Shown piece by piece: positions 19,868 through 33,176 of a stretch of 53,427 nt of DNA (positions are counted from its first letter, which is position 1; the number at the start of each line of letters is the position of its first letter). The notes under the pieces are model-generated. The model was given only the letters and a program-made list of their open reading frames with translations. It was not told the DNA's origin and searched no databases. The position numbers were made by a program, and so were the translations under genes. The DNA is from Mariniblastus sp. (lineage in GTDB: Bacteria > Planctomycetota > Planctomycetia > Pirellulales > Pirellulaceae), in contig JAKVBF010000005.1 of assembly GCA_022447555.1 (NCBI GenBank), forward strand, positions 1-53,427, read 5' to 3'.

Positions 19868-21703
19868 TTAGGATTTGCCTTGCTTTTGACCGTCGGATTT
19901 GGCCGGCTCGGTCATGCCCGCTCGCTCAAAGGCATCCTCGAGAAAGTAATTCATGTCCTCAGTGTCTTCCGCATGAAGAATCTCATAAGCCCGAGCCGGG
20001 TTGTGAGCATGATACAACTGTTCGCGCAAGTTCACATCACGAGTGATTGCAGTGGCGAAGGCTGCTAATATTTCTAGATGCAAGTTGCGTTCCGACTCGG
20101 GTGTCGCCAACATGAGGACGGCGTGAACAGGGCGATCATCGGGCGCGTTTAGATCAAGTCCGTTCCGACAAATTCCTAAGACCCCGGTGATCCGTTGGTC
20201 GTCTCCGGGCAAGATCGCGTGAGGGATCATCAATCCTTCGCCAAGACAGGTCGTTTCTTCGGCTTCGCGTTTTAATACTTGCGCAACGTATTCGTCTTGC
20301 TTCATAGAGATTTTATTGGTCGCATACAGAAGTGTCGCCATTCGTTGAATGACTTCTTCACGGGTCTCACCTGTCAAATCAGTGACGATGCTTTGTTCCT
20401 GCAGGAAGTCGAGCAACCTTGCTCGATCCTTATGGTCTTCACCGGATTGTTGTAATGCAAATCGAGTAGCGCTTGGACCCAACAGCTGATTGATTGCCAA
20501 GGCTGCGAGCCCGACCGTGGTAACCATTCCTTCGACGCCGTCAAAGTAGGGGTTTTCTTGAACCAGAAGGATTAGACCAACGGCTACGCCACCGTGGGGT
20601 AATAGAGCGATACCCAGGTAATTTCGAATATCCTTTGACATTCCCGCGGCACTCATGGCAAGGAAGGCACTCACCCACTTCCCGCACAAACGTGCGAAGA
20701 AAAAGAGGGCGACCAAACCAATAGCCGCGGGGACTTGGGTGAAATCCAGCTTCATGCCCGCGAGAGTAAAAAAGATCGCAAATAACAAGCTACTGATAGA
20801 ATGGAGATAGGCTTCAGCTGAGCGAACCGTGTCATGTCGTATGTTGGTTACAAAGATTCCCGCAAACGTGCATGCGAGAATCCCGGACACCCCAAGCCCA
20901 ACGGCCGTCCCCCAGGTGCCCAAAATTACGGCCACCATGATGGGGCCTAGAAAAGCAGGGCCAACCATGGTCCTCGTCAGAAAGAGCGCTAGACAGGCCC
21001 ATGTCGCGCCCACAGCGCAACTAATCCCAAATTGCAAGCCGACCAACCCAAAGGCATTCGCCCAACCGGTATTTTCTCCGAGGAAACTTGAAATGAATAT
21101 AAAGATCCCCACCGCCACCATGTCAATTAGGCCGATGGCCGCCAGCAATGTGCGAGTCAAAATACCTTTCGCTCTGGCCTCCTGAATGACCAGCACTGTT
21201 GTCCCTGGGGCGCCAGCAATCGCGATCGCTGCTAACAGCATGGCGGGTGTGAAGCCCATTTCTGGATTGATCATGTTCCCGATAAACACCATCGCGACGC
21301 CAACGATGGTCGGCGTGATTAGAGTTTCTCCCAGTAACAAGAATCCAACACGCCGGGTCACGTTTCGAAGGCTGGCAAAATAAAGGGTCGCACCCACGGT
21401 GAATGCGATAAATCCGAGGACAAAGCTCATGAGTGGAGAAAATCGACTGAGCGATTCGACATCGAGCCCTGGCAGTGATAGCTGTCGCAGGATAATCCCC
21501 GTGGCAATCCAGCCAGTGACTTTGGGGAGGCGAAGTTTCGCGAAAAGCTCTCCACCGACGATGCCGATCACCAAGATCAACGCCAGTCCTAACAGCGGAT
21601 CTTCGAACTGGACGTTAGACATCCAATCGGAAAAATTTTCCTGAACGGTCGATTCTGTGACCGGCTGTGGGTCTAGCTCGGTTTGGTTAACGAATTGCGG
21701 CAT
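19868..21703 (-). CDS. CPA2-type cation/proton antiporter with C-terminal PTS EIIA domain
   Basis: 611 aa inner-membrane protein. Residues about 35-420 hold some eleven to thirteen hydrophobic segments of a Na+/H+ or K+/H+ antiporter, including LALILVIGIVGGELFAKL, IAIAGAPGTTVLVIQEARAK (the ion-site region) and LLFAIFFTLAGMKLDFTQV. Residues about 450-595 are a PTS EIIA type-2 domain with IPHAILPGDDQRITG, the His phosphorylation region. EIIA-fused antiporters are thought to be controlled by phosphorelay. The start ATG gives MPQFVNQTELDPQ, with a 35-residue cytoplasmic leader. It is convergent with rluD with zero spacing and lies upstream of nothing obvious in function. Confidence 0.9.
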   Translation of the reverse strand: MPQFVNQTELDPQPVTESTVQENFSDWMSNVQFEDPLLGLALILVIGIVGGELFAKLRLPKVTGWIATGIILRQLSLPGLDVESLSRFSPLMSFVLGFIAFTVGATLYFASLRNVTRRVGFLLLGETLITPTIVGVAMVFIGNMINPEMGFTPAMLLAAIAIAGAPGTTVLVIQEARAKGILTRTLLAAIGLIDMVAVGIFIFISSFLGENTGWANAFGLVGLQFGISCAVGATWACLALFLTRTMVGPAFLGPIMVAVILGTWGTAVGLGVSGILACTFAGIFVTNIRHDTVRSAEAYLHSISSLLFAIFFTLAGMKLDFTQVPAAIGLVALFFFARLCGKWVSAFLAMSAAGMSKDIRNYLGIALLPHGGVAVGLILLVQENPYFDGVEGMVTTVGLAALAINQLLGPSATRFALQQSGEDHKDRARLLDFLQEQSIVTDLTGETREEVIQRMATLLYATNKISMKQDEYVAQVLKREAEETTCLGEGLMIPHAILPGDDQRITGVLGICRNGLDLNAPDDRPVHAVLMLATPESERNLHLEILAAFATAITRDVNLREQLYHAHNPARAYEILHAEDTEDMNYFLEDAFERAGMTEPAKSDGQKQGKS

Positions 21704-22646: not shown

Positions 22647-23447
22647 TTAATTCGCCATGACTCTCTTGATAATTTCGTTATCGAAATAATTTATCGACAT
22701 TCCGGCATCGATGATCAGTCGTTGTGCATTGATTCCCGAGGACCGGGGGCTGAGAAGGAAGCAGGCTGCATTGGCGGCTTCTTGGGTGGTGACGGCCGAG
22801 CCGCGTGGAATGACTTGTTCAGCGAACAAATAGGACTCAACATAGCCTGGGATGCCGGCGGATGCAGAAGTTTTCAACAGGCCCGGCGCGACAGCATTGA
22901 ACCGGACCTTTGAAAACTGGCTAAAGCTTTTTGTAAGAAACGCCAGCGATGAGTCCAGTGCGGCTTTTACCGGGGCCATGAAGCCATAATTTTCGCTCGC
23001 CATAGTGGTCGTTGAGATTGATATCGTAACCACTGAGGCGTCGTCGCTAAGGAGTCTTTTAAATTGATTCGATATGGAGATGAAGGAGTAGCAGGAGATG
23101 TCGATGGTCCGTAAGAATTGCTTTTTATTTGTTTCATGAAAAGGTTTGATCTCACCCTCGTAGTCGGCGAATGCAATGGAATGGACTAGACCATCGACAC
23201 GATCATAGGCCTCGCCGATTTCATTCCTTACGGATACGATCTGATCTTCAAATTCAACATCGCAGACAAACATCGGGCGATCCCCCATTAACTTGCTCAG
23301 AGAATCGCGTCGCGCTTGGCTGCGAACCACGTAGACCACGACAGCACCGGAGTCTTCTAGCGTGCGCCCAATGTGCCAAGCGATGCTTTTCTTATTAGCC
23401 ACACCAAAAACAACAATGGTTTTTCCTTCAAGTTGCAGAAAATCCAT
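22647..23447 (-). CDS. Enoyl-[acyl-carrier-protein] reductase, FabI type
   Basis: 266 aa short-chain dehydrogenase. It reduces trans-2-enoyl-ACP with NADH or NADPH, the last step of each FASII cycle. The FabI-type cofactor motif is [19 protein letters not shown] (about residues 12-30; G-x5-S-I-A-x-G/H-I). The catalytic pair is Tyr154 and Lys161 in [17 protein letters not shown] (Y-x6-K). The end reads ITQRL-like [14 protein letters not shown]. It is the last gene of a minus-strand run with FabZ-like and CrtI-like genes, so it probably serves a dedicated pathway rather than bulk membrane lipid; whether another FabI exists elsewhere cannot be seen here. Start ATG, nine bases after the FabZ stop. 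Confidence 0.9.
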
Positions 23448-23455
23448 TTGGCTAC

Positions 23456-23905
23456 CTATTCCGAGTCAGGACTAGCGATGGTGCACACGAACGAGAAACG
23501 TGCCGCCAATTTCCCGTCGCAGGTGACTTTTGCTGTCAGATAAAAAGCATTTGATAATTGTTCGTCTAAACGGCTGGTCATTTCGATCGTTTGACCTGGC
23601 CTAACCATGGTTTTGAATCGTACTTGTTCAAGCTTGGTGAGAACGGGAACTCCGTCGCCCTCGGGAACGATGCTGGACAACAGAATCGCGCCTGCTTGGA
23701 CCCCACATTCACAAAGGATGACACCGGGCACCAATGGGTAGTCAGGGTAGTGGCCTTGGAAAAAAAATTCATCCGATGAAAACGTTTTACGGCAAACAAT
23801 ACTTGACGCGTCTTGGGATGCAATTTCATCTACCAAAAGCATGTGGGATCGGTGAGGAATCGCAGCGTGGATAGCTGATAAGGTCGGGTGAGGCTCGGAG
23901 CTCAT
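23456..23905 (-). CDS. 3-hydroxyacyl-[acyl-carrier-protein] dehydratase, FabZ-like
   Basis: 149 aa hot-dog fold enzyme that removes water from 3-hydroxyacyl-ACP. The catalytic His52 and Glu66 are seen in [20 protein letters not shown], the exact FabZ block (HYPDxPxxPGVxxxE). The N-terminus [18 protein letters not shown] is also FabZ-like. At 149 aa it is of normal size. The fabI-like gene starts eight bases downstream and the CrtI-like gene ends about thirteen bases upstream, so they are one transcription unit. Confidence 0.92.
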
Positions 23906-23918
23906 GGGCGGTTCTTAC

Positions 23919-25364
23919 TTATTCCGTGGCAATAGGGGATGTATTGGCCACGCTCGAAAGGTGGTTGATTACGTCGTTGGCCACAATTACACCATAGTTA
24001 ATCGTTCCCAGCCAGCCGGACATGATAATGCCGCAACTGCCGGCGTGATACAGACCGGGGATTTGTTGAGGCAATGCGCGGCTGACCCCCAGACCTTCGA
24101 ATTTTGTCCCGAAACTGGCCCCATTTATGTGCTGCGTGTAATGCCGGAACGTGATGGGTGTGGCGACTTCAGCATGAGTGATTCGTTCCCGGCAGTTTGG
24201 GACATATTTTTCTAGTGAATCCAATGTCGTTTGGATCAAGTCTTCCTTGCTTGCATCATAGGCCGCTTTGTCCATTCCGGTCCAGTCTTCAAAATTTGCG
24301 TTGGTACTGGATACAATGAAAGTTCGCTCTTTCTTGTCGGGTCGCGTATCTGGATAATAAAATGAAAACGTTCGGCTGGTGATGTCGCGACTTAAGAGCA
24401 GATCTGTTTGAAAGCGGTCGGCTGTACTGCAAAACAACAGATCGCCGGTTTCGCGAGGAATCGAATCTTCAGGATGCAGGGCCATGTATACCTGCGTGCT
24501 GGAGTTGTTTAGACGTACGGCCTCCGCCTCCTCGACGAAGTCCGCATCAAAGCAGTCTTTACCAATCAAATTGAAAATCGTGGCTCGTAAGTTGGCGTTG
24601 GAAACGACCGCTTTTGTTCGAATCGTCCGGCCGTTCACGTCGATGGACTGAATGCCGTCTTTGGAAACGTTGATTTTTTTGACATCACAATTGATCCTGA
24701 TGTCGACCCCATTACCCTTCATCTCCTTTTCCATGGCTTTGATTAGTTTGTCCGTTCCGCCCTGAAAAACAAAAACGCCTTTCGACATGAAATTCGAAAA
24801 GACGATTCCATAGGTCAATGCGGGGTCTTCAAGCGTTGATCCATTGGCGTAGGTGATCGGTTCCATGAGCAGGCGGACAACGTCTTCTCGTCCGGGGAAA
24901 AATCGGTCAAACAATTCTCGCGTTGTGAGCGATTGATCGTCATAGAAATTCATGTTGCGAGCCGTGTCGAAAAACTGGTCGACGGTCTGTTTTTCAATTC
25001 CGAAATCAGTGGTCAGAAGCTTGGTGAAATCATTGCGGTTGAAGGTGGTGGTCAATGAGAACATCGGATTGTCGAAGCGGACGCCATGGAGTTGCACAAT
25101 CGAATCGGCAATTTCGGGAGTCCAGTATCGCCTACAACTCTTGACCATGCCGTAGGGAAAGCCGTGCAGCGAGATGTCGAAGATGTGACCGCCCGGTCGC
25201 TTGAACCAAGTCGCCATTCCCCCCAATTTGTAGTGCTGTTCTAGTAGAAGAACCGACAAACCCTCTCGGGCTAAAATGTTAGCGGCGGTTAGCCCACCCA
25301 GCCCGCTGCCGACAACGACAACGTCATATGCGTCGGCAACGCCTTTCAAATAATCTTTGGGCAT
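23919..25364 (-). CDS. FAD-dependent oxidoreductase, phytoene desaturase/carotenoid isomerase (CrtI/CrtISO) family
   Basis: 481 aa. FAD-binding Rossmann motif [20 protein letters not shown] (about residues 15-34), then [20 protein letters not shown] (about 39-58), the CrtI-like second motif. The C-terminal FAD region is [20 protein letters not shown] (about 443-462), a variation of the family's 'GxxxxPGGGxxGA' block. Enzymes of this family desaturate, isomerise or saturate polyene chains. Its place between an ACP/KAS group and FabZ/FabI suggests an acyl-ACP-derived or polyene substrate rather than phytoene. ATG start. An AmiE-NamZ gene on the other strand lies upstream with about 290 bases between. 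Confidence 0.85.
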
Positions 25365-25651
25365 GAATTTAATGCATTTATGAATTGGAACCTGAAGACT
25401 GAGCAGTTAAGGTTAAATCATCCCCAAAGAATCCTCAACGGGCAACGCCGAGAAACCGGCCACAGATTGGAAAACGGACCAAGTTCACGCCAGATAAGGC
25501 CCGTCTCAGGGGTGGTGCAATGGGGGAAAGCAGTTGATGCTGTCGTGTCTGGTATTGAGTGATTTGAGGGGCGGAGCCTCATTGCGGGTGAACTGCCATC
25601 CTCTGTCCGAGCTTGATCGATTCCCATAATGTTTGACTGGTTGAGGGTGGA

Positions 25652-28006
25652 ATGAAATTGCCAATGGTCAATATGCCGAACCTAGTGTCAGGCAAAATAG
25701 GGTTAACCCAGCTGCTCTGTTTGACACTGTTTTCATCTTCTTGGGCATGGGCTGTCGGCCAATCGGTGGAGGATCTTCTATCAACGCGTTCGGCGGAGGC
25801 CGAAATCGAAGCCTTGATTGTCCAGGGAATTAGTGAACATAGGCTGCCGGGGTGTGTTGTGATTGCTGGTAACGGCCGCGAGATCTTTTATCACCGCGCC
25901 TTCGGTTGTCGACAGATCCAGCCGACTCGTAAATCCATGGAGAAAAACACGCTCTTTGATTTGGCCTCCTTAACCAAGCCGCTGGCAACCTCAGCGTGTG
26001 TGATGAAGCTTTGGGAACAAGGTGAGCTGAAACTGTCAGATCCAGTGGCAAAGTATCTCCCGGAATTTCAAGGAAATGGTAAGTCGAAAATCACCATCAG
26101 GCAGCTGTTGACGCATCAGGGAGGCTTGATTCCTGATAATCATTTAAGGGAATATGACGGTGGGGTAGAGCGGGCGTTCGAGAAAATCAACGCATTGAAA
26201 CTGGTAGCCCAGCCCGGGAGCACGTTTATCTATTCCGACGTTGGTTTTATCGTTCTGGCAAAGCTTGTCGAAAAAGTTAGTGGTTGTAAATTGGATAAAT
26301 ATTGCCAAACGGAGCTGTGGTCGAAGTTGGATATGACTGAAACAGGCTTTAGCCCGGAGCCTTCATTGCGTAAGCGTGCGGCAGCCACCGAGCCACGTAA
26401 GGGTGTTTGGATGAATGGTGTGGTACATGATCCCCGCGCATTTCGATTGAACGGAGTGGCTGGCCATGCCGGTCTTTTTTCGACCGCAGAGGATCTCGCG
26501 ATTTACGCGCAGATGTGGCTGGGAAGAGGGGCGTTAGACGGGCAGCAAATTTTCGCTTCGGAAACGGTCGATGTGATGACTCAGGCGTACCAAGTTTCTA
26601 GGGGGATTCGCGGACTGGGTTGGGATAAACAGACAGGTTATTCGACCAACCGAGCTGAAGGAATGAGCGCTTCAGCATACGGACATGGCGGATTTACCGG
26701 GACGGCCATTTGGATTGATCCGGAACAGGACTTGTTTTACGTTTTTCTTAGCAATCGTGTGCACCCCGACGGGAAAGGATCGGTGAATCGACTGATTGGA
26801 AAGATCGGCCAGATCTTGGTGGAGAAAAACGCGGCGGAAAATCAGACGCTCGGGAATCGAAACGAGAGACTCACAGGGGTCCGGACAGGCTTGGATTGTT
26901 TGATCCAGCAAGCGTTTCAGCCGCTGTACGGAAAACGAATCGGTTTAATTACCAACCAAACGGGACGAACCCACGATGGAAATTGGAATGTCGATGCCTT
27001 AGGCCAGTCGGAGCATGTCGATTTAGTTCGCCTGTTTAGCCCTGAACACGGAATTGAGGGTTTGCTGGATCAGCCGCTGATCGGTGACTCACGAATGGAA
27101 GAGCGAGCAATGGACGTTGTGAGTCTCTACGGTGAGGTGCGACGCCCCACAGCGAAACAGCTTGAGGATATCGACTGCCTTGTCTTTGACATTCAGGATG
27201 TAGGGACTCGATTTTATACCTACATCTCAACGCTACAGTATGCCCTGAAGGCTGCGGCCGAACAGGGGATTCGTTTTGTCGTTCTGGATCGTCCCAACCC
27301 TGTGGGCGGTCACAAGGTGCAGGGTCCCGTATTAGAGCCAGAGTTGGTCTCGTTCGTGGGCTGCCACCCTCTCCCGATATGCCACGGTATGACGGTGGGC
27401 GAGTTGGCGCGAATGTTTGCGACCGACCTGCAGATCGACGTGGACCTTTGCGTGATCCCGGTAGAGAATTGGAAACGTGGACAATATTTTGATGAAACCG
27501 GACTGGCATGGGTGAATCCGTCACCCAATATACGAAACCTTAATCAAGCGATCCTCTATCCTGGAGTGGGGCTTTTGGAATACACCAATGTTTCGGTAGG
27601 TCGAGGAACAGAGGCTCCATTTGAAATCGTCGGAGCACCCTGGGTCGATCGGTTTCAATTGGCCGATCGCTTGAATCGTGCGAAAATCGAAGGGGTCCGC
27701 TTCATGCCGTTAAGTTTTACGCCGCAATCCAGCAAGCACGCCGGTGATTTATGTCACGGTGTTTCCATCAGGATCACTGATCGCGAAAAAGTCAGTCCTG
27801 TACGGCTCGGTTTTGAAATGGCGATGGCGTTTCGGGATGATTATGCAGCAAGCTGGCAGTCCGAGTCTTTCGGATTGTTACTGGGAAGTGAACGCCTCCT
27901 GGAAGCATTTATGAACGGCGCTTTGTGGCCACAGTTGCAAGAGGTCTATCTGCCGCGACTCAATGAATTCAAAAGGCGACGTGAGCCTTTTTTGATTTAC
28001 AAATAA
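25652..28006 (+). CDS. Fusion of serine hydrolase (AmiE/beta-lactamase fold) and DUF1343 muramidase (NamZ-like)
   Basis: 784 aa, exported: residues 15-36 form a signal with a late cleavage. The N-terminal half (about 40-400) is a class C beta-lactamase-fold hydrolase: S106-L-T-K109 (the Ser/Lys pair), YSDVG (the Tyr motif, in FIYSDVGF) and GHGGFTG (the third motif). The C-terminal half (about 415-784) is DUF1343: GKRIGLITNQTGR, LFSPEHGIEG, VFDIQDVGTRFYTYISTLQY and WVNPSPNIRNLNQAILYPG. By family knowledge, Bacillus subtilis AmiE (YbbE) removes peptide from MurNAc and NamZ (YbbC) removes terminal MurNAc; these adjacent genes are fused here into one protein. So it likely degrades peptidoglycan fragments stepwise in the periplasm. 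It stands opposite to its neighbours and splits the lipid cluster. Confidence 0.9.
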   Translation: MKLPMVNMPNLVSGKIGLTQLLCLTLFSSSWAWAVGQSVEDLLSTRSAEAEIEALIVQGISEHRLPGCVVIAGNGREIFYHRAFGCRQIQPTRKSMEKNTLFDLASLTKPLATSACVMKLWEQGELKLSDPVAKYLPEFQGNGKSKITIRQLLTHQGGLIPDNHLREYDGGVERAFEKINALKLVAQPGSTFIYSDVGFIVLAKLVEKVSGCKLDKYCQTELWSKLDMTETGFSPEPSLRKRAAATEPRKGVWMNGVVHDPRAFRLNGVAGHAGLFSTAEDLAIYAQMWLGRGALDGQQIFASETVDVMTQAYQVSRGIRGLGWDKQTGYSTNRAEGMSASAYGHGGFTGTAIWIDPEQDLFYVFLSNRVHPDGKGSVNRLIGKIGQILVEKNAAENQTLGNRNERLTGVRTGLDCLIQQAFQPLYGKRIGLITNQTGRTHDGNWNVDALGQSEHVDLVRLFSPEHGIEGLLDQPLIGDSRMEERAMDVVSLYGEVRRPTAKQLEDIDCLVFDIQDVGTRFYTYISTLQYALKAAAEQGIRFVVLDRPNPVGGHKVQGPVLEPELVSFVGCHPLPICHGMTVGELARMFATDLQIDVDLCVIPVENWKRGQYFDETGLAWVNPSPNIRNLNQAILYPGVGLLEYTNVSVGRGTEAPFEIVGAPWVDRFQLADRLNRAKIEGVRFMPLSFTPQSSKHAGDLCHGVSIRITDREKVSPVRLGFEMAMAFRDDYAASWQSESFGLLLGSERLLEAFMNGALWPQLQEVYLPRLNEFKRRREPFLIYK

Positions 28007-28018
28007 ATCCCGTGGGGT

Positions 28019-29407
28019 TCAATCTCGAAGGCAGTGAAGGTTGGCCATCGAGATACCGCTCATCATCGCTCCGATTATGCCAACATATCCTTGGTCGGTT
28101 CCACACAGGAAAAGGTTGTCGACGTGTGTCGTGCCATCCAGTTGCTTGTCGGGCGCACCGTAGACGGCGCCATTGTCGTGCCATGTAAATCGTTGAATCG
28201 TGGTTGGCGTGAATAGATCGGTGTCGATGACATAATTACGGAAATCCGGAGTGAAGCGTACAGCCGATGCGACACTCCGATCGTACCAGCGATGTTTTTC
28301 GATTCGATATTCTTCCTCAGAAAGATCGTTCCATCGATCAAAGTCTGCGATCGTCGTGATGCGGACAATCCCATCGCTGAGCGTTCCATCGTCGTCCGAG
28401 TAAATGTAGTTGTTGGGGGAACAGATGACCCCAGTTCGAACGTCACAGAGGTCTTGCTTTGGGCGATTCCAATGGAATTTGTCCGAGTCATTGTAGAAAA
28501 CGATGGTATCCGAATTACCGATTGACTCAGGTTGGCGATCCAGAACGGAGATCGACTCGATGAATGTCAGTTGGCCTGCTCCACGTGGATCGGGTTCACT
28601 CGTGTCACTACACATTCTCAGAGTCTCAATATTGCCGGCCGAGGAAAGGATCCGCTTTCCAACGATCTGCTCTCCATTGTCCAGTTCGATTGCCACTGCA
28701 TGCCCGCTGTCCACGTGGATCTTGCGGACGCCTTTTCGCAATAGCAGCTCACCGCCGAGACCACGAAAACGTTTGACAAGGTTCTTCAAAATGAGACGTA
28801 CACCTTTGTAAGGACGAGCAAACCCCTCCATGAAGATACTGCGAAACATGATGCAGAATTGGCCCCAAACCATGTCTTCTTCTGCCGCGTTTCCGTACCA
28901 CATCAATGGGCAAAGCAGCATTTCGATGAGCAGAGGATCGGTGAAGGTTTCTGCCAACACTTGCCGCCCTGAAATTTGAAACGCCGCCTGATCTAGGTCG
29001 TCGTAGTCGATGATTTTTTGCAGCAAAGACTCAAAATGATCCACTTGAGTGGGGAACGCTTGGGCAATCTCAGCGCGAAGCAATTCAATGTCGTTGTCGA
29101 ACCGAATTTCCGTTTCAGGGAAAACAATACGAGAACCCTTCTGAGGAGCGAGCGAGAAGTCTTCCCATTTAAACCGCAGCTGGCGAAGGATCCTTGCTAA
29201 CGGCCCTTTCTTAGCGCCCTTCTCGGTAAAATTCGTGACCGCGTGTAAGCCGACGTCATAGTCCCGGCCGTTCATTCGATAAAATGAATTTAAACCACCA
29301 ATGGTGTAATGACGTTCAAGAATGCAAACGCGTTGGTCGTAATGAGCCAAGCGAATTCCAGCCGCCAAACCGGACATCCCAGCTCCGATTATTATCGTGT
29401 CATACAT
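28019..29407 (-). CDS. FAD-dependent oxidoreductase, CrtI-like (second copy)
   Basis: 462 aa. FAD motif IIIGAGMSGLAAGIRLAHYD (about residues 5-24), then ILERHYTIGGLNSFYRMNGR (about 29-48), and the C-terminal block NLFLCGTDQGYVGIIGAMMS (about 434-453). It is of the same broad family as the gene at 23919-25364 but clearly diverged. The ACP gene lies about 66 bases upstream on the same strand, so it belongs with the KAS/ACP genes. The stop is only about a dozen bases from the end of the convergent AmiE-NamZ gene. Substrate unknown; an unsaturated acyl or polyene chain is inferred from context. Confidence 0.85.
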   Translation of the reverse strand: MYDTIIIGAGMSGLAAGIRLAHYDQRVCILERHYTIGGLNSFYRMNGRDYDVGLHAVTNFTEKGAKKGPLARILRQLRFKWEDFSLAPQKGSRIVFPETEIRFDNDIELLRAEIAQAFPTQVDHFESLLQKIIDYDDLDQAAFQISGRQVLAETFTDPLLIEMLLCPLMWYGNAAEEDMVWGQFCIMFRSIFMEGFARPYKGVRLILKNLVKRFRGLGGELLLRKGVRKIHVDSGHAVAIELDNGEQIVGKRILSSAGNIETLRMCSDTSEPDPRGAGQLTFIESISVLDRQPESIGNSDTIVFYNDSDKFHWNRPKQDLCDVRTGVICSPNNYIYSDDDGTLSDGIVRITTIADFDRWNDLSEEEYRIEKHRWYDRSVASAVRFTPDFRNYVIDTDLFTPTTIQRFTWHDNGAVYGAPDKQLDGTTHVDNLFLCGTDQGYVGIIGAMMSGISMANLHCLRD

Positions 29408-29473
29408 ACAGCGGACTTGCCGGATTCACGCAAAGACCAGCTTTGGAAAACGGGCTATACAGGGACTGAGAGG

Positions 29474-29734
29474 CTAGGTGGCTACGACGTCAACCATTTT
29501 TGGAGTCAGGTATTCGACGGTGCTGGCCATCGAATTCAAGGCTGTGTAATCCTCTTCTGGAACCTGAACGCGGTAACGTTTACGAAGCTCCATCACAATG
29601 TCAAGAAAGTCCATGCTGTCGAGTTCCAACTGGTCGCGAAAAGCAACTGCATCGTCAAGAGTGGAAAGGTCTTCGTCAGGCGCAATATCGCCCAGAATGT
29701 CTATGATTGCTGATCTGATTTCTTCAGGCGCCAT
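29474..29734 (-). CDS. Acyl carrier protein
   Basis: 86 aa. The phosphopantetheine attachment site is Ser40 in ELDSMDFLDIV (D-S-M-D), and the protein is acidic with the usual four-helix length. It carries the growing acyl chain for the neighbouring KAS. A primary metabolism ACP normally has DSLD or DSLDTVE; DSMD is typical of specialised-pathway ACPs. The KAS gene lies 20 bases upstream on the same strand and the CrtI-like gene about 66 bases downstream. Confidence 0.94.
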   Translation of the reverse strand: MAPEEIRSAIIDILGDIAPDEDLSTLDDAVAFRDQLELDSMDFLDIVMELRKRYRVQVPEEDYTALNSMASTVEYLTPKMVDVVAT

Positions 29735-29754
29735 TGCGCGTTCTCCATAACTGG

Positions 29755-31014
29755 TTAAACCCGTTTGACCACCAAGGCGGAATTGATTCCCAACATGCCA
29801 AACGAGTTGTTCAATATGTAATCGACCTGCCCAATCTCGCGGGGCTGGTTTTTTACCAACTGGACCATATCACACTCAGGATCGACGTCGTCAAGATTGA
29901 TGGTTGGGTGAACAACGCCGTCTGAAAAGCCCATCAAATTCCCCGCTAATTCTAACGCGCCTGCCGCTCCCATCGTATGGCCTATAAAGCTTTTTGCGTT
30001 ATTTACATGAGTTTTTTCGCTTTCCCCAAACACCTCCCGAACGGCTGCAATTTCTAGTGTGTCCCCCATGCCGGTACCCGTCGCGTGGGTGCTGACAACA
30101 TTCACGTCGTCAAAGTTGATGCAGGCTCGATTTAAGGCCATACGCATGCATTGGGCCTGCCGTTCACTGTTTGGCAAAACAAAGTCTGTGGCGTCGGTAT
30201 TCATGCCGTATCCGACGATTTCGGCGATTATTTGGGCGTCCCGAGCTTTGGCGTCGGCCAATCGCTCCAACGTGTAAAGACAGCCTCCCTCGGCCACGAC
30301 GATACCGTTGCGATTAGCGTCAAAAGGGCGTGAGGCCTTGGTTGCATCGGTATGGGAGGCTAACGCCCCTTGACTCGCGAATCCCGCAAATATCCCAAAC
30401 GTGTGGATGCTCTCTGACACGCCACCAGCCAGAGCCACATCACATTCGCGAAGTCGCAGCATCTGCAGCCCCTGGATCAATCCGGCATTTCCGGCTGCAC
30501 AAGCTGCACCAATGGTGTAATGGGGTCCCGTGATTCCCATGTTCAATGCGATTTCGCCCGCTGGATTGTTCGCTACGGTGCGAGGGTTGTGATGATGAGA
30601 CCAAAACTTAGTGTCATAATCGAAACCCTTGATTTCAAAAATTTCACTTTCCGTTTCCACGTTCCCATGCTCTGTCACGCCAACATAGATCCCAATTCGC
30701 GATCGATCGATGTTGTCGACGTCCAGACCCGAATCCAACAAAGCCTCATTGGCGCAATAAATTCCAACACTTCCAGCTCTCGTGCCTCGGCGAGCATCCT
30801 TACGGGTTTGGTGGCGTTTTACGTCAAAATCGCAAATTCCGGCCAACGTCTTGCCAAAATAGCGAACTTCGTAATCCTGGACGCCACTGCGGCCCTCCAG
30901 AAGCCCGCAACGGAACTCACTGGGAGAGTTTCCGTTGGGTGACGTTAGGCCCATGCCGGTAATGACGACTCGCTGGTCGTCAGGTAATTCATCAGGTCGG
31001 GGATATGAAATCAT
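29755..31014 (-). CDS. Beta-ketoacyl-ACP synthase (KAS II/FabF type)
   Basis: About 419 aa (from ATG at 31014, MISYPRPDEL; a TTG 20 codons upstream is less likely). Claisen condensing enzyme that elongates acyl-ACP. The full catalytic set is visible: Cys172 in TIGAACAAGNAGLIQGLQML, His310 in STHATGTGMGDTLEI, Lys341 and His346 in KSFIGHTMGAAGALELAG. The C-terminus SFGMLGINSALVVKRV is the usual FabF ending. As the first gene of the ACP/CrtI-like run, it sets chain length for the pathway. It lies about 130 bases downstream of the OleD-like gene on the same strand. Confidence 0.93.
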   Translation of the reverse strand: MISYPRPDELPDDQRVVITGMGLTSPNGNSPSEFRCGLLEGRSGVQDYEVRYFGKTLAGICDFDVKRHQTRKDARRGTRAGSVGIYCANEALLDSGLDVDNIDRSRIGIYVGVTEHGNVETESEIFEIKGFDYDTKFWSHHHNPRTVANNPAGEIALNMGITGPHYTIGAACAAGNAGLIQGLQMLRLRECDVALAGGVSESIHTFGIFAGFASQGALASHTDATKASRPFDANRNGIVVAEGGCLYTLERLADAKARDAQIIAEIVGYGMNTDATDFVLPNSERQAQCMRMALNRACINFDDVNVVSTHATGTGMGDTLEIAAVREVFGESEKTHVNNAKSFIGHTMGAAGALELAGNLMGFSDGVVHPTINLDDVDPECDMVQLVKNQPREIGQVDYILNNSFGMLGINSALVVKRV

Positions 31015-31141
31015 ACGTTGGCTCGTGAAAAATCGTGTCTCATTGAAGTTACCGACAAGTATTGGCGTTGGCAACCGCCGAACTATCGGGATGCTCCTTA
31101 TCCATGCTGCCTATTTTTGGCCCTATAAGGTGCGAGGAACC

Positions 31142-32131
31142 TTATTGGCCCATCGATTCAGCAAGGCGATTCATCCCTTCAGCGGTCGAAACGCGGGGTT
31201 CAAATCCGAAGTCCTGTCGCGCTCGAGAGATGTCAAAGTAATGATTTTTGGCAAGTTGGGCCGCCAAGAAACGGGTCATTCTGGGCTCGCTCTTAATTTG
31301 GGCAAGACCGTAAACGGCTTCCATTAATCCGCCCAAGCGATAGGCCCATTTGAGCGGAATCGACTTTCGGACACCGGGTAATTGCGCCAAGGCTAAAATT
31401 TGATCGATCCAATCCCAGCAGTTGACTGGCTCGCCTTGGGAAAGGAAATAGGCTTGGCCGCAGACGGGCGAATTGGGCTCCATGGCCTCAGCCGCCTGAA
31501 GATGTGCCACCGCTGCATTTTCAACATAAATAATGTCGATAAGATTTTTCCCTTCTCCCACTTTACGTAATTTGTTAGAGCGGGCTCTGTCGAGCAGGCG
31601 TGGAATCAAATGTTGGTCCCGAGGACCCCAAATCAAATGGGGCCGCAGTGCGCAGGTCATGAGCGAATACGGATCATTCGCCAGCAGGACCTGTTGCTCC
31701 GCCAACGCTTTTGAATGTGGGTAATGACACAACCATTGTTCTGGATAACCCGAAGTCTCGTTGACATTGATCTGGTCATCACCATTGAAGGTCACACTGG
31801 GGCTACTTGTGTAAACCATTTTACGAACGCCATTTTGTTGGCATCCGTTAATCACATTTTGTGTCCCGACGGTATTGGTCTCGTAAAACAGCTGCCATTT
31901 GCCCCAGATACCCGAAATGGCCGCCGTATGAAATACGACATCGATATTCCGGGTGGCCTGCAGGCAGGACTCAGGGTTTCGGATGTCCCCTAGTGTATGG
32001 TCGACCTTCAGTGAGCCGAGGTATTCATTAGGTTTTCGCGTCATGACCCGTACGTCATGACCTTGTTTTACCAATAACTCAACGAGGTACATGCCGAGAA
32101 ATCCGTTTGCACCTGTAACAAGCGCCTTCAC
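31142..32131 (-). CDS. NAD(P)-dependent 3-beta-HSD/OleD-like reductase
   Basis: 329 aa. The GTG at 32131 (MKALVTGANGFLGMYL when read with Met) is preferred: it starts at the first Rossmann strand and has TAGGAAAG about ten bases upstream; the longer frame adds 32 unlikely residues. Motifs: GANGFLG (about residues 7-13), VVFHTAAISGIWGKW, the Tyr/Lys pair in CHYPHSKALAEQQVLL, and ALRPHLIWGPRDQHLIPRLL. The block 'HY.HSKA.AE..VL..ND' with 'RPHLIWGPxDxHLxPRL' is very like OleD, which reduces 2-alkyl-3-ketoacids in head-to-head olefin synthesis. No oleA, oleB or oleC lies in the window, so an OleD role is not proven; sterol-type 3-beta-hydroxy dehydrogenation is the alternative. Confidence 0.85.
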   Translation of the reverse strand: MKALVTGANGFLGMYLVELLVKQGHDVRVMTRKPNEYLGSLKVDHTLGDIRNPESCLQATRNIDVVFHTAAISGIWGKWQLFYETNTVGTQNVINGCQQNGVRKMVYTSSPSVTFNGDDQINVNETSGYPEQWLCHYPHSKALAEQQVLLANDPYSLMTCALRPHLIWGPRDQHLIPRLLDRARSNKLRKVGEGKNLIDIIYVENAAVAHLQAAEAMEPNSPVCGQAYFLSQGEPVNCWDWIDQILALAQLPGVRKSIPLKWAYRLGGLMEAVYGLAQIKSEPRMTRFLAAQLAKNHYFDISRARQDFGFEPRVSTAEGMNRLAESMGQ

Positions 32132-32306: not shown

Positions 32307-33020
32307 TCAATCAAATTTGACCCAGTGGCCGTTCAGTAGTCGTTCGTTGGGATGGAAATTAGTCTTGTAAGCCATGTGGGGAGAGCGATTGATGTAGTAA
32401 CCCAAATATAAATGACTCAAACTATTTTCCTGACAATACTGAATTTGTTTCAAAATAGAATAGGTTCCAACGCTCTGTCGACTCAACTCCGGATCATAAA
32501 AAGTGTACACCGCAGAGAGGCTGTTTTCTCCATGATCACATATGGCGATCCCCGCTAATTGATCGGAAAGCCAGTAAGATATTTCAAAGGAGGAGAAGCA
32601 GGTGCGTACAAAGCCCCATTCATATTCCTTCAGATCGATGGCCGATTCCTTGGTTGCCAGCCCCCTTTCCAGCCGGTGCCGGTTGAAGAGATCGACACGT
32701 TGCTGGTTGGCAATGGCCGGACCCTTCCGGATCTCAAGTTGTCGGTCGCCACGTCTTAAAATTCGCCGTTGACTGGGGCTGAATTCAAATTCATTGCAGT
32801 CCAGACGTATCGGTTCGCATGCGCTGCAATTGGGACAGCGAGTCTGGTAGAGAAACTCACCTGTCCTTCGATTGCCCTCAGCTAAACGGATGTCGGCTTC
32901 CGACAAGGTGAGCTTTCTGACAGGCATTCGCAACGGAAGTCGTGCCGTCTCCCCAGGAAGGTAGGGGCATTCTTCCGGTTCATCGAGGATCACGATATCA
33001 GTGGATTGTGGAGATCGCAT
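32307..33020 (-). CDS. bpt: Aspartate/glutamate leucyltransferase (bacterial Bpt)
   Basis: About 237 aa. It adds leucine from Leu-tRNA to proteins with N-terminal Asp or Glu, making them N-degrons for ClpS/ClpAP. Seen: ECPYLPGETARLPLRMPVRK near the N-terminus, GEFLYQTRCPNCSACEPIRL (cysteine block), SAVYTFYDPELSRQSVGTYS and LSHLYLGYYINRSPHMAYK. These are the signatures of the ATE family. The start at 33020 (MRSPQSTDIVIL) matches the usual N-terminus; a frame 41 codons longer is open but lacks family sequence. It lies about 150 bases downstream of dnaB on the same strand. Confidence 0.92.
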   Translation of the reverse strand: MRSPQSTDIVILDEPEECPYLPGETARLPLRMPVRKLTLSEADIRLAEGNRRTGEFLYQTRCPNCSACEPIRLDCNEFEFSPSQRRILRRGDRQLEIRKGPAIANQQRVDLFNRHRLERGLATKESAIDLKEYEWGFVRTCFSSFEISYWLSDQLAGIAICDHGENSLSAVYTFYDPELSRQSVGTYSILKQIQYCQENSLSHLYLGYYINRSPHMAYKTNFHPNERLLNGHWVKFD

Positions 33021-33176
33021 GAAATCAAAATTAAAACCAAACGGTTGAACGTGAGTAACCCGCTGTGAAGCGAAAGGTGACTTAACGTATGGTTCTAATC
33101 CAGTCGCTGTCAGGTTACATGGGTATGTCCAAGACGGATTCAACGTGGAGATTCGTGAAAAATCTTCCTGCCGCTC

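Follow-up and report, generated by a model that had tools for sequence, protein, structure and literature searches.

A FASII-type gene set with two CrtI-like flavoproteins in Mariniblastus, a candidate source of polyunsaturated chains for OleA

The gene set in the Mariniblastus window

The DNA analysed here, referred to as the window, comprises the first 53,427 nucleotides of contig C45 in the 4.19 Mb genome of a Mariniblastus sp. It carries a minus-strand set of seven genes: a beta-ketoacyl-acyl carrier protein synthase (KAS), an acyl carrier protein (ACP), two CrtI-type flavoproteins (CrtI1 and CrtI2), a FabZ-type dehydratase, a FabI-type reductase and, upstream, an OleD-like reductase of the extended short-chain dehydrogenase/reductase (SDR) type. 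Open reading frame (ORF) and family searches confirmed all seven at the places given in a preliminary description of the sequence (Table 1). By coordinates, 20 bases separate KAS from ACP, 66 ACP from CrtI1, 13 CrtI2 from FabZ and 8 FabZ from FabI. Going by its relatives, the KAS probably starts at the ATG at 31014; the OleD-like gene has a GTG start, and its alignment with relatives begins at residue 33 of the longer ORF.

Table 1. Genes of the set in the window, with the gene that splits it
Feature	Position	Strand	Basis
FabI-type enoyl-ACP reductase, Tyr146 replaced by Ile	22647..23447	-	family match and residue alignment
FabZ-type 3-hydroxyacyl-ACP dehydratase	23456..23905	-	family match and alignment
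CrtI2, second CrtI-type flavoprotein	23919..25364	-	family match, AlphaFold2 fold, clade support 100
NamZ/beta-lactamase fusion gene, splits the set, not a member	25652..28006	+	PF07075, PF20732, PF00144
CrtI1, CrtI/CRTISO-type flavoprotein	28019..29407	-	family match, AlphaFold2 fold, clade support 100
ACP of the set	29474..29734	-	PF00550; D-S-M-D motif in 66/66 rows
KAS (KAS II), own clade	29755..31074	-	Cys-His-His invariant, KAS tree
OleD-like extended SDR (2-alkyl-3-oxoalkanoate reductase family)	31142..32131	-	NCBIfam OleD models, GTG start

The only break in the minus-strand set is the NamZ/beta-lactamase gene. Among 40 regions tested, a NamZ gene between CrtI1 and CrtI2 recurred only in L051, the closest relative of the same genus. 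The split is local, because L052, also of the same genus, has the set whole and without the NamZ gene. The nearest named relative among the best 80 of 317 CrtI2 loci is a Mariniblastus metagenome-assembled genome (MAG) (L092), with 85% identity in CrtI2.

Catalytic residues were examined by alignment, with a few genomes entered twice, as two loci. The KAS Cys and two His were invariant in 60 of 60 rows aligned to Escherichia coli FabF, and the ACP Ser in 66 of 66 rows aligned to E. coli ACP. FabI kept Tyr156 and Lys163 in all 68 rows; its Tyr146 was Ile in the window and in the same 68 rows, and this substitution is a mark of the family. FabZ kept its GH and E, which are presumably its catalytic residues. 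The catalytic residues of KAS, ACP and FabI are those of a type II fatty acid synthase (FASII), save for FabI Tyr146, so that the statement in the preliminary description that all catalytic residues are intact held for the four proteins checked (KAS, ACP, FabI and FabZ) at every position except this one.

The AlphaFold2 models of CrtI1 and CrtI2 (pLDDT 91.5 and 87.2) both gave 4rep, a gamma-carotene desaturase, as the best PDB match, followed by 4dgk, CrtI. The predicted models therefore have the CrtI/carotenoid isomerase fold, and both proteins carry the GxGxxG motif for binding flavin adenine dinucleotide, while scores against the curated families stay below the cut-offs. Carotenoid isomerase is the best model for CrtI1 and the second best for CrtI2, far under its cut-off in each case. 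The two window proteins are 24% alike. Both are the likely double-bond enzymes of the set, as either isomerases or dehydrogenases. The best models for the OleD-like SDR are those of NCBIfam OleD, at 361 and 350 bits against a cut-off of 580; the OleD of an intact operon (L147, below) scores 378 bits and is likewise under the cut-off.

On one flank of the set lie genes for DnaB, L9, SSB, S6, Pth, L25 and PrsA, and an arginyl-tRNA-protein transferase-like gene (32307-33143, minus strand) adjoins the DnaB and L9/SSB/S6 genes. The other flank holds a gene whose product falls in no known family, an Na/H exchanger gene and an RluD-like gene; at 19868-21703 (minus strand) the exchanger is fused to a PTS EIIA domain.

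Conservation of the set across phyla

The conserved set is KAS–ACP–CrtI1–CrtI2–(FabG)–FabZ–FabI, in Planctomycetota often with OleD upstream, and it was found in Planctomycetota, Verrucomicrobiota, Nitrospinota, Desulfobulbaceae and one Chloroflexota MAG. CrtI1 matched at E < 1e-100 in 35 of 40 genomes, the window's own included, and at E <= 0.001 in 37. In 20 fetched regions the order OleD-KAS-ACP-CrtI1-CrtI2-FabZ-FabI recurred, whole or mostly, across families of the order; the set is in two parts in G017, G030 and G033. A further 20 regions were drawn from across the phylum; 18 of them were not of anammox type, and in 12 of these 18 CrtI2 had KAS and ACP beside it.

Named loci were scanned with the CrtI2 alignment. 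The best 80 of 317 CrtI2 loci came from Planctomycetota, Verrucomicrobiota (mostly Opitutales), Nitrospinota, Desulfobulbaceae and Desulfocapsa, and one Dehalococcoidales MAG. Companions were counted as genes within 8 kb of CrtI2 on one strand, on contigs many of which are short. Among these 80 loci, 38 had KAS, ACP and CrtI1, 42 had FabZ and FabI, and 27 had all five; in a second collection of 33 loci with CrtI2 the corresponding numbers were 21, 24 and 19. This comparison of gene order, a check put forward in the preliminary description, showed that the linkage of KAS and ACP with the CrtI-like genes is kept over several phyla. The absence of FabG noted there is true of the window locus and does not extend to all lineages, since FabG lies within the set in 17 of the same 80 loci; in L070 the gene labelled f16, between CrtI2 and FabZ, is FabG. 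Desulfobulbaceae and Dehalococcoidales are groups known as anaerobes, and because the set occurs in Desulfobulbaceae and in a Dehalococcoidales MAG, an oxygen requirement is unlikely.

Some loci have peculiarities of their own. In two f40 planctomycetes (L065:7764-8924 and L075:7747-8931, both minus strand) FabZ contains an in-frame insert of about 230 residues and resumes on both sides of it. The insert resembles REP-associated tyrosine transposases (NCBIfam 72 and 71 bits, cut-off 80; PF01797 26.0 and 22.5, cut-off 23). In G286, FabI and CrtI1 each match in two pieces (L075:6912-7744 and L075:11114-12677), perhaps through assembly frameshifts. In the Dehalococcoidales MAG (L133:3-9261) the set begins with two KAS matches that are interleaved with two OleA matches.

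Association with the Ole pathway

It is the Ole pathway that connects the set with a function. In two Desulfobulbaceae loci (L147 and L161) eleven genes lie on one strand in the order KAS-ACP-CrtI1-CrtI2-FabG-FabZ-FabI-OleA-OleB-OleC-OleD, the families of OleA, OleC and OleD in L147 having been checked by model search. A locus from another class (L070 of G067) has the same order as far as OleC. In L058, OleC is upstream of OleD with one ORF in between, and in several Opitutales loci the set is followed by OleA-OleB. In the genome of the window the OleD-like reductase is in place upstream of the set, as the preliminary description had it; the rest of the pathway lies elsewhere in the genome, beyond the window. 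OleA (G000:C45:141382-142422; 447 bits, cut-off 285) lies some 110 kb further along contig C45, and its best PDB matches are 3fk5 and related structures, which we take to be Xanthomonas OleA. OleB (G000:C3:130364-131128) is 48% identical to that of L147. OleC (G000:C62:334395-336041) scores 666 bits with PRK09274 (cut-off 478), and 532 and 497 bits with olefin beta-lactone synthetase models, under their cut-offs. The OleA of this genome adjoins a Peptidase_C26/GATase gene (L077:8175-10486), as OleA does in L057 and L039. Two OleC neighbours in Pirellulales, f10 and f13, were first taken for OleB and OleA and proved to be RimK-like and MCH.

The association was then quantified in one sample of 294 Planctomycetota genomes, searched for CrtI2, OleA (NF006720), OleC (NF006754) and PfaD (TIGR02814). 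CrtI2 matched in 69 genomes, or 66 after removal of three anammox-type f59 genomes (107-109 bits, none with OleA); OleA was present in 107 and PfaD in 43. OleA occurred in 65 of the 66 CrtI2 genomes versus 42 of the 228 others (Fisher p = 3.6e-35, a value that ignores shared descent). The sole CrtI2 genome without it, G312, is 80% complete and has a partial CrtI2. OleC was over its cut-off in 63 of the 66. PfaD, in contrast, was found in none of the 66, the window's genome included. The 107 OleA genomes therefore comprised 65 with CrtI2, 39 with PfaD, none with both and three with neither (G042, G180 and G321), and 4 of the 43 PfaD genomes lacked OleA. Both partners often lie near OleA: CrtI2 within 15 kb in 27 of 65 genomes, PfaD within 25 kb in 19 of 39. 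Beyond Planctomycetota, as judged by record title, OleA matched in 37 of 42 CrtI2 genomes of unstated completeness, 36 of them over the cut-off, and PfaD in none of the 42. The PfaD searches cover these 294 and 42 genomes, and with them some, though not all, of the genomes labelled as set-bearing in the OleA tree.

In G084 (L185), PfaD, two Pfa-type proteins (domains KS-AT-ACP-KR-DH and KS-FabA-FabA) and OleA-OleB-OleC-OleD form one run, the Pfa block occupying the place that the set has in L147. Among the 56 rows of an OleA tree, a single branch (support 100/100) parts the 37 that come from set genomes (Planctomycetota, Verrucomicrobiota, Thermodesulfobacteriota and Chloroflexota) and the 19 that come from PfaD genomes, which are all Planctomycetota. 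Of 21 Pfa loci, 20 supplied an OleA row (L192 gave none); OleA hits under 250 columns were excluded, and the clean split is that of the tree with the long-branched L179 left out. Families f18 and f63 hold both kinds of genome, each with the matching OleA. From the tree split and from these two families, OleA is judged to follow the precursor system more than the species. A 2020 paper found greater OleA likeness within a phylum than across phyla (PMC7158056); inside Planctomycetota, going by the tree, the partner system matters for OleA likeness.

Proposed function and alternative readings

From gene content, linkage, OleA co-occurrence, PfaD exclusion, the OleA split and the predicted folds, we infer the following reaction steps and product. 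With a probability of about three in four, the set would be a counterpart of Pfa, built of type II enzymes and independent of oxygen, and would feed polyunsaturated chains to OleA. Chain extension on the ACP of the set would fall to the KAS; FabZ, together with a ketoreductase (FabG in other lineages; in this genome probably a FabG encoded outside the set), would produce trans-2-enoyl-ACP, which FabI would reduce in some cycles, and the two CrtI-type flavoproteins would set the double bonds that are kept. OleA would join two of these chains head to head, after which OleD, OleC and OleB would convert the product to a long polyunsaturated hydrocarbon, probably of the C31:9 type, much as Pfa and OleABCD together do in Shewanella. 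By pathway chemistry, making 16:4 (4,7,10,13) during elongation needs a trans-2 to cis-3 and a trans-2 to cis-2 isomerisation, each twice; two CRTISO-like proteins would fit, one per kind of isomerisation. Alternatively, the flavoproteins might dehydrogenate a preformed chain.

C31:9 has reportedly been obtained from many ole bacteria, a result attributed to Sukovich in 2010. Pfa supplies 16:4n-3 as the OleA precursor (PMC6463001). Desulfotalea psychrophila makes C31:8 and C31:9, and planctomycetes are cited for such compounds (Rattray 2009, PMC2649909). According to the same source, it has phytoene-dehydrogenase-like genes (DP1860, DP2405 and DP2406), no PUFA-type (polyunsaturated fatty acid) polyketide synthase was found in it, and a FASII-derived route with phytoene-dehydrogenase-like enzymes was proposed. 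A 2023 study reports oleC in PVC lineages, Deltaproteobacteria and Nitrospinaceae (PMC10176705).

Several observations weigh against this proposal. CrtI2 alone served as the marker of the whole set in the genome counts, and it stands alone despite long flanks in L117, L118, L141 and L153, which means that in some lineages the genes of the set do not lie together. In the window's own genome the Ole genes are scattered, and scores with the NCBIfam models for OleD, olefin beta-lactone synthetase and CrtI all fall under the cut-offs. Five of the 42 non-planctomycete CrtI2 genomes gave no OleA match, one of them (L150) having a piece of OleA at a contig end. The OleA of G044 (L179), a genome with PfaD and without CrtI2, falls on the set side of the tree, on a long branch. 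The C31:9 of D. psychrophila is no proof for the set, because a FASII locus that also has radical SAM genes (DP1853 and DP1855) is present there (PMC2649909). Finally, the set's FabI-like gene may also serve housekeeping synthesis, since no second FabI was found in the window's genome at E <= 1e-15 (P0006 search). FabK matched there only below its cut-off; FabV gave no match, in a search that is uninformative because the control query matched nowhere either.

The strongest rival is that the set feeds Ole with a chain other than methylene-interrupted 16:4, for instance a conjugated or partly unsaturated one, leading to another polyene hydrocarbon. CrtI-type enzymes are known for conjugated polyenes, and in D. 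psychrophila C31:8 exceeds C31:9 (PMC2649909, table 3). We consider this unlikely, given that the compounds reported from that organism, and cited for planctomycetes, are C31:8 and C31:9, and that Pfa, in the same place, makes 16:4n-3.

Less probable again is that the locus is an additional FASII making the usual membrane fatty acids and that the CrtI genes stand beside it by chance. KAS, ACP, FabZ and FabI do belong to FASII families, and the missing second FabI would suit such a role. Against it, linkage to CrtI1 and CrtI2 is kept across phyla, the CrtI2-OleA association is nearly complete with PfaD excluded, and the KAS does not group with FabF. In a quick tree, in which long branches were flagged, the 26 KAS of the set, drawn from five phyla, formed one group (SH-aLRT 99). 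Outside it fell anammox-type KAS, E. coli FabF and FabB, and four of the window genome's five other KAS matches, the weakest (L006) having been kept out of the tree. One of that genome's KAS (L079) is adjoined by FabG and groups weakly with E. coli FabF and FabB.

The preliminary description had related the set to ladderane clusters, noting that its product may be different. Its view of a dedicated set building an unusual unsaturated chain for a hydrocarbon with its own ACP and KAS is well supported by linkage over phyla, the KAS clade and the OleA association; the ladderane link is not supported. Of the two findings that it had named as refuting it, a grouping of KAS and ACP with housekeeping sets and a lack of conserved linkage with the CrtI-like genes, neither was observed. 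The same gene kinds (KAS, ACP, FabZ and CrtI-like) occur in the FASII clusters of Kuenenia (PMC2649909, PMC4790861) and are adjacent in two f59 loci, L073 and L074. These two run ACP-FabZ-KAS-KAS-CrtI and have one more gene after CrtI, which in L073 encodes a radical SAM protein carrying a B12 domain; they are termed anammox-type from gene order alone, which is that of kuste3603-3608 (PMC4790861). It is nevertheless very improbable that the set is a relative of these clusters making ladderanes or other cyclic acyl chains. Proteins of L073 and L074 are only 25-34% identical to those of the window. In a CrtI tree, also quick, CrtI1 and CrtI2 each formed one group (support 100) with anammox-type CrtI outside both, as with KAS. 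No radical SAM gene was present among the 20 ORFs scanned at 16103-39738, and the distribution of the set tracks OleA, which 0 of the 3 f59 genomes have. On the trees, the lack of a nearby radical SAM gene and the OleA association, this reading is rejected. An outgroup search on plasmids for CrtI-type proteins gave three weak records, two of which were used in the tree; on a Streptomyces plasmid (L209:538-2214) a distant CrtI-like gene adjoins a beta-ketoacyl synthase gene.

That the CrtI genes serve carotenoid synthesis, as the predicted fold of CrtI and gamma-carotene desaturase might suggest, is the least credible reading and is rejected on family scores (best carotenoid model 100.6 against a cut-off of 549.7 for CrtI2, and 89.2 against 586.9 for CrtI1) and on gene company, with ACP, KAS, FabZ and FabI repeatedly alongside. 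Two anammox CrtI homologues put in place of crtI gave no lycopene (PMC4790861).

As a source of chains for OleA, the set would resemble Pfa, which is paired with OleABCD in Shewanella and Photobacterium; in Geobacter and Gemmata, type I pfa-like clusters have been proposed to supply the Ole precursors (Shulse and Allen 2011, PMC3098273). The two systems occupy the same place beside oleABCD, and CrtI2 and PfaD never occur together among the 294 genomes. They differ in build: Pfa consists of giant multidomain proteins plus PfaD, the set of six or seven small proteins including two CrtI-type flavoproteins. The oleABCD head-to-head pathway is in the same genomes, often adjacent and with the OleD-like gene in the window; Ole joins chains, whereas the set would make them. 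CrtI1 and CrtI2 share the predicted fold and the GxGxxG motif with CrtI phytoene desaturases and carotenoid isomerases, and unlike these they form two separate families accompanied by ACP and FASII enzymes. Polyunsaturated hydrocarbons are reported for Desulfotalea, of the order Desulfobulbales, to which the Desulfobulbaceae and Desulfocapsa hits of the set presumably also belong. The clusters of Kuenenia and Desulfotalea resemble the set in joining FASII genes to CrtI-like oxidoreductases (Rattray 2009); those of Kuenenia differ in having radical SAM enzymes and several KAS, with anammox-type KAS and CrtI outside the set's clades. Rattray 2009 does not tie these FASII/CrtI genes to ole in the parts examined (PMC2649909), and no paper linking such a set to ole genes appeared in the open literature searched, as represented by titles, abstract starts and passages.

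A broader claim is more tentative and, in our estimate, has somewhat worse than even odds: that bacteria have, beside Pfa, a further polyunsaturated acyl synthase of separate type II enzymes, in which two CRTISO-like flavoproteins would carry out, without oxygen, both isomerisations required for a methylene-interrupted chain, present in at least five phyla and exchanged for Pfa, along with the OleA that matches it, as the supplier of one and the same Ole pathway. The set is a concrete candidate source of the C31 polyenes in a sulfate reducer whose genome yielded no known PUFA pathway (PMC2649909). If the proposal is true, planctomycetes, verrucomicrobia, nitrospinas and desulfobulbs would have an oxygen-independent PUFA system that uses small enzymes instead of giant PUFA synthases, and the presence of CrtI-like genes close to FASII genes in bacteria without ladderanes would be explained.

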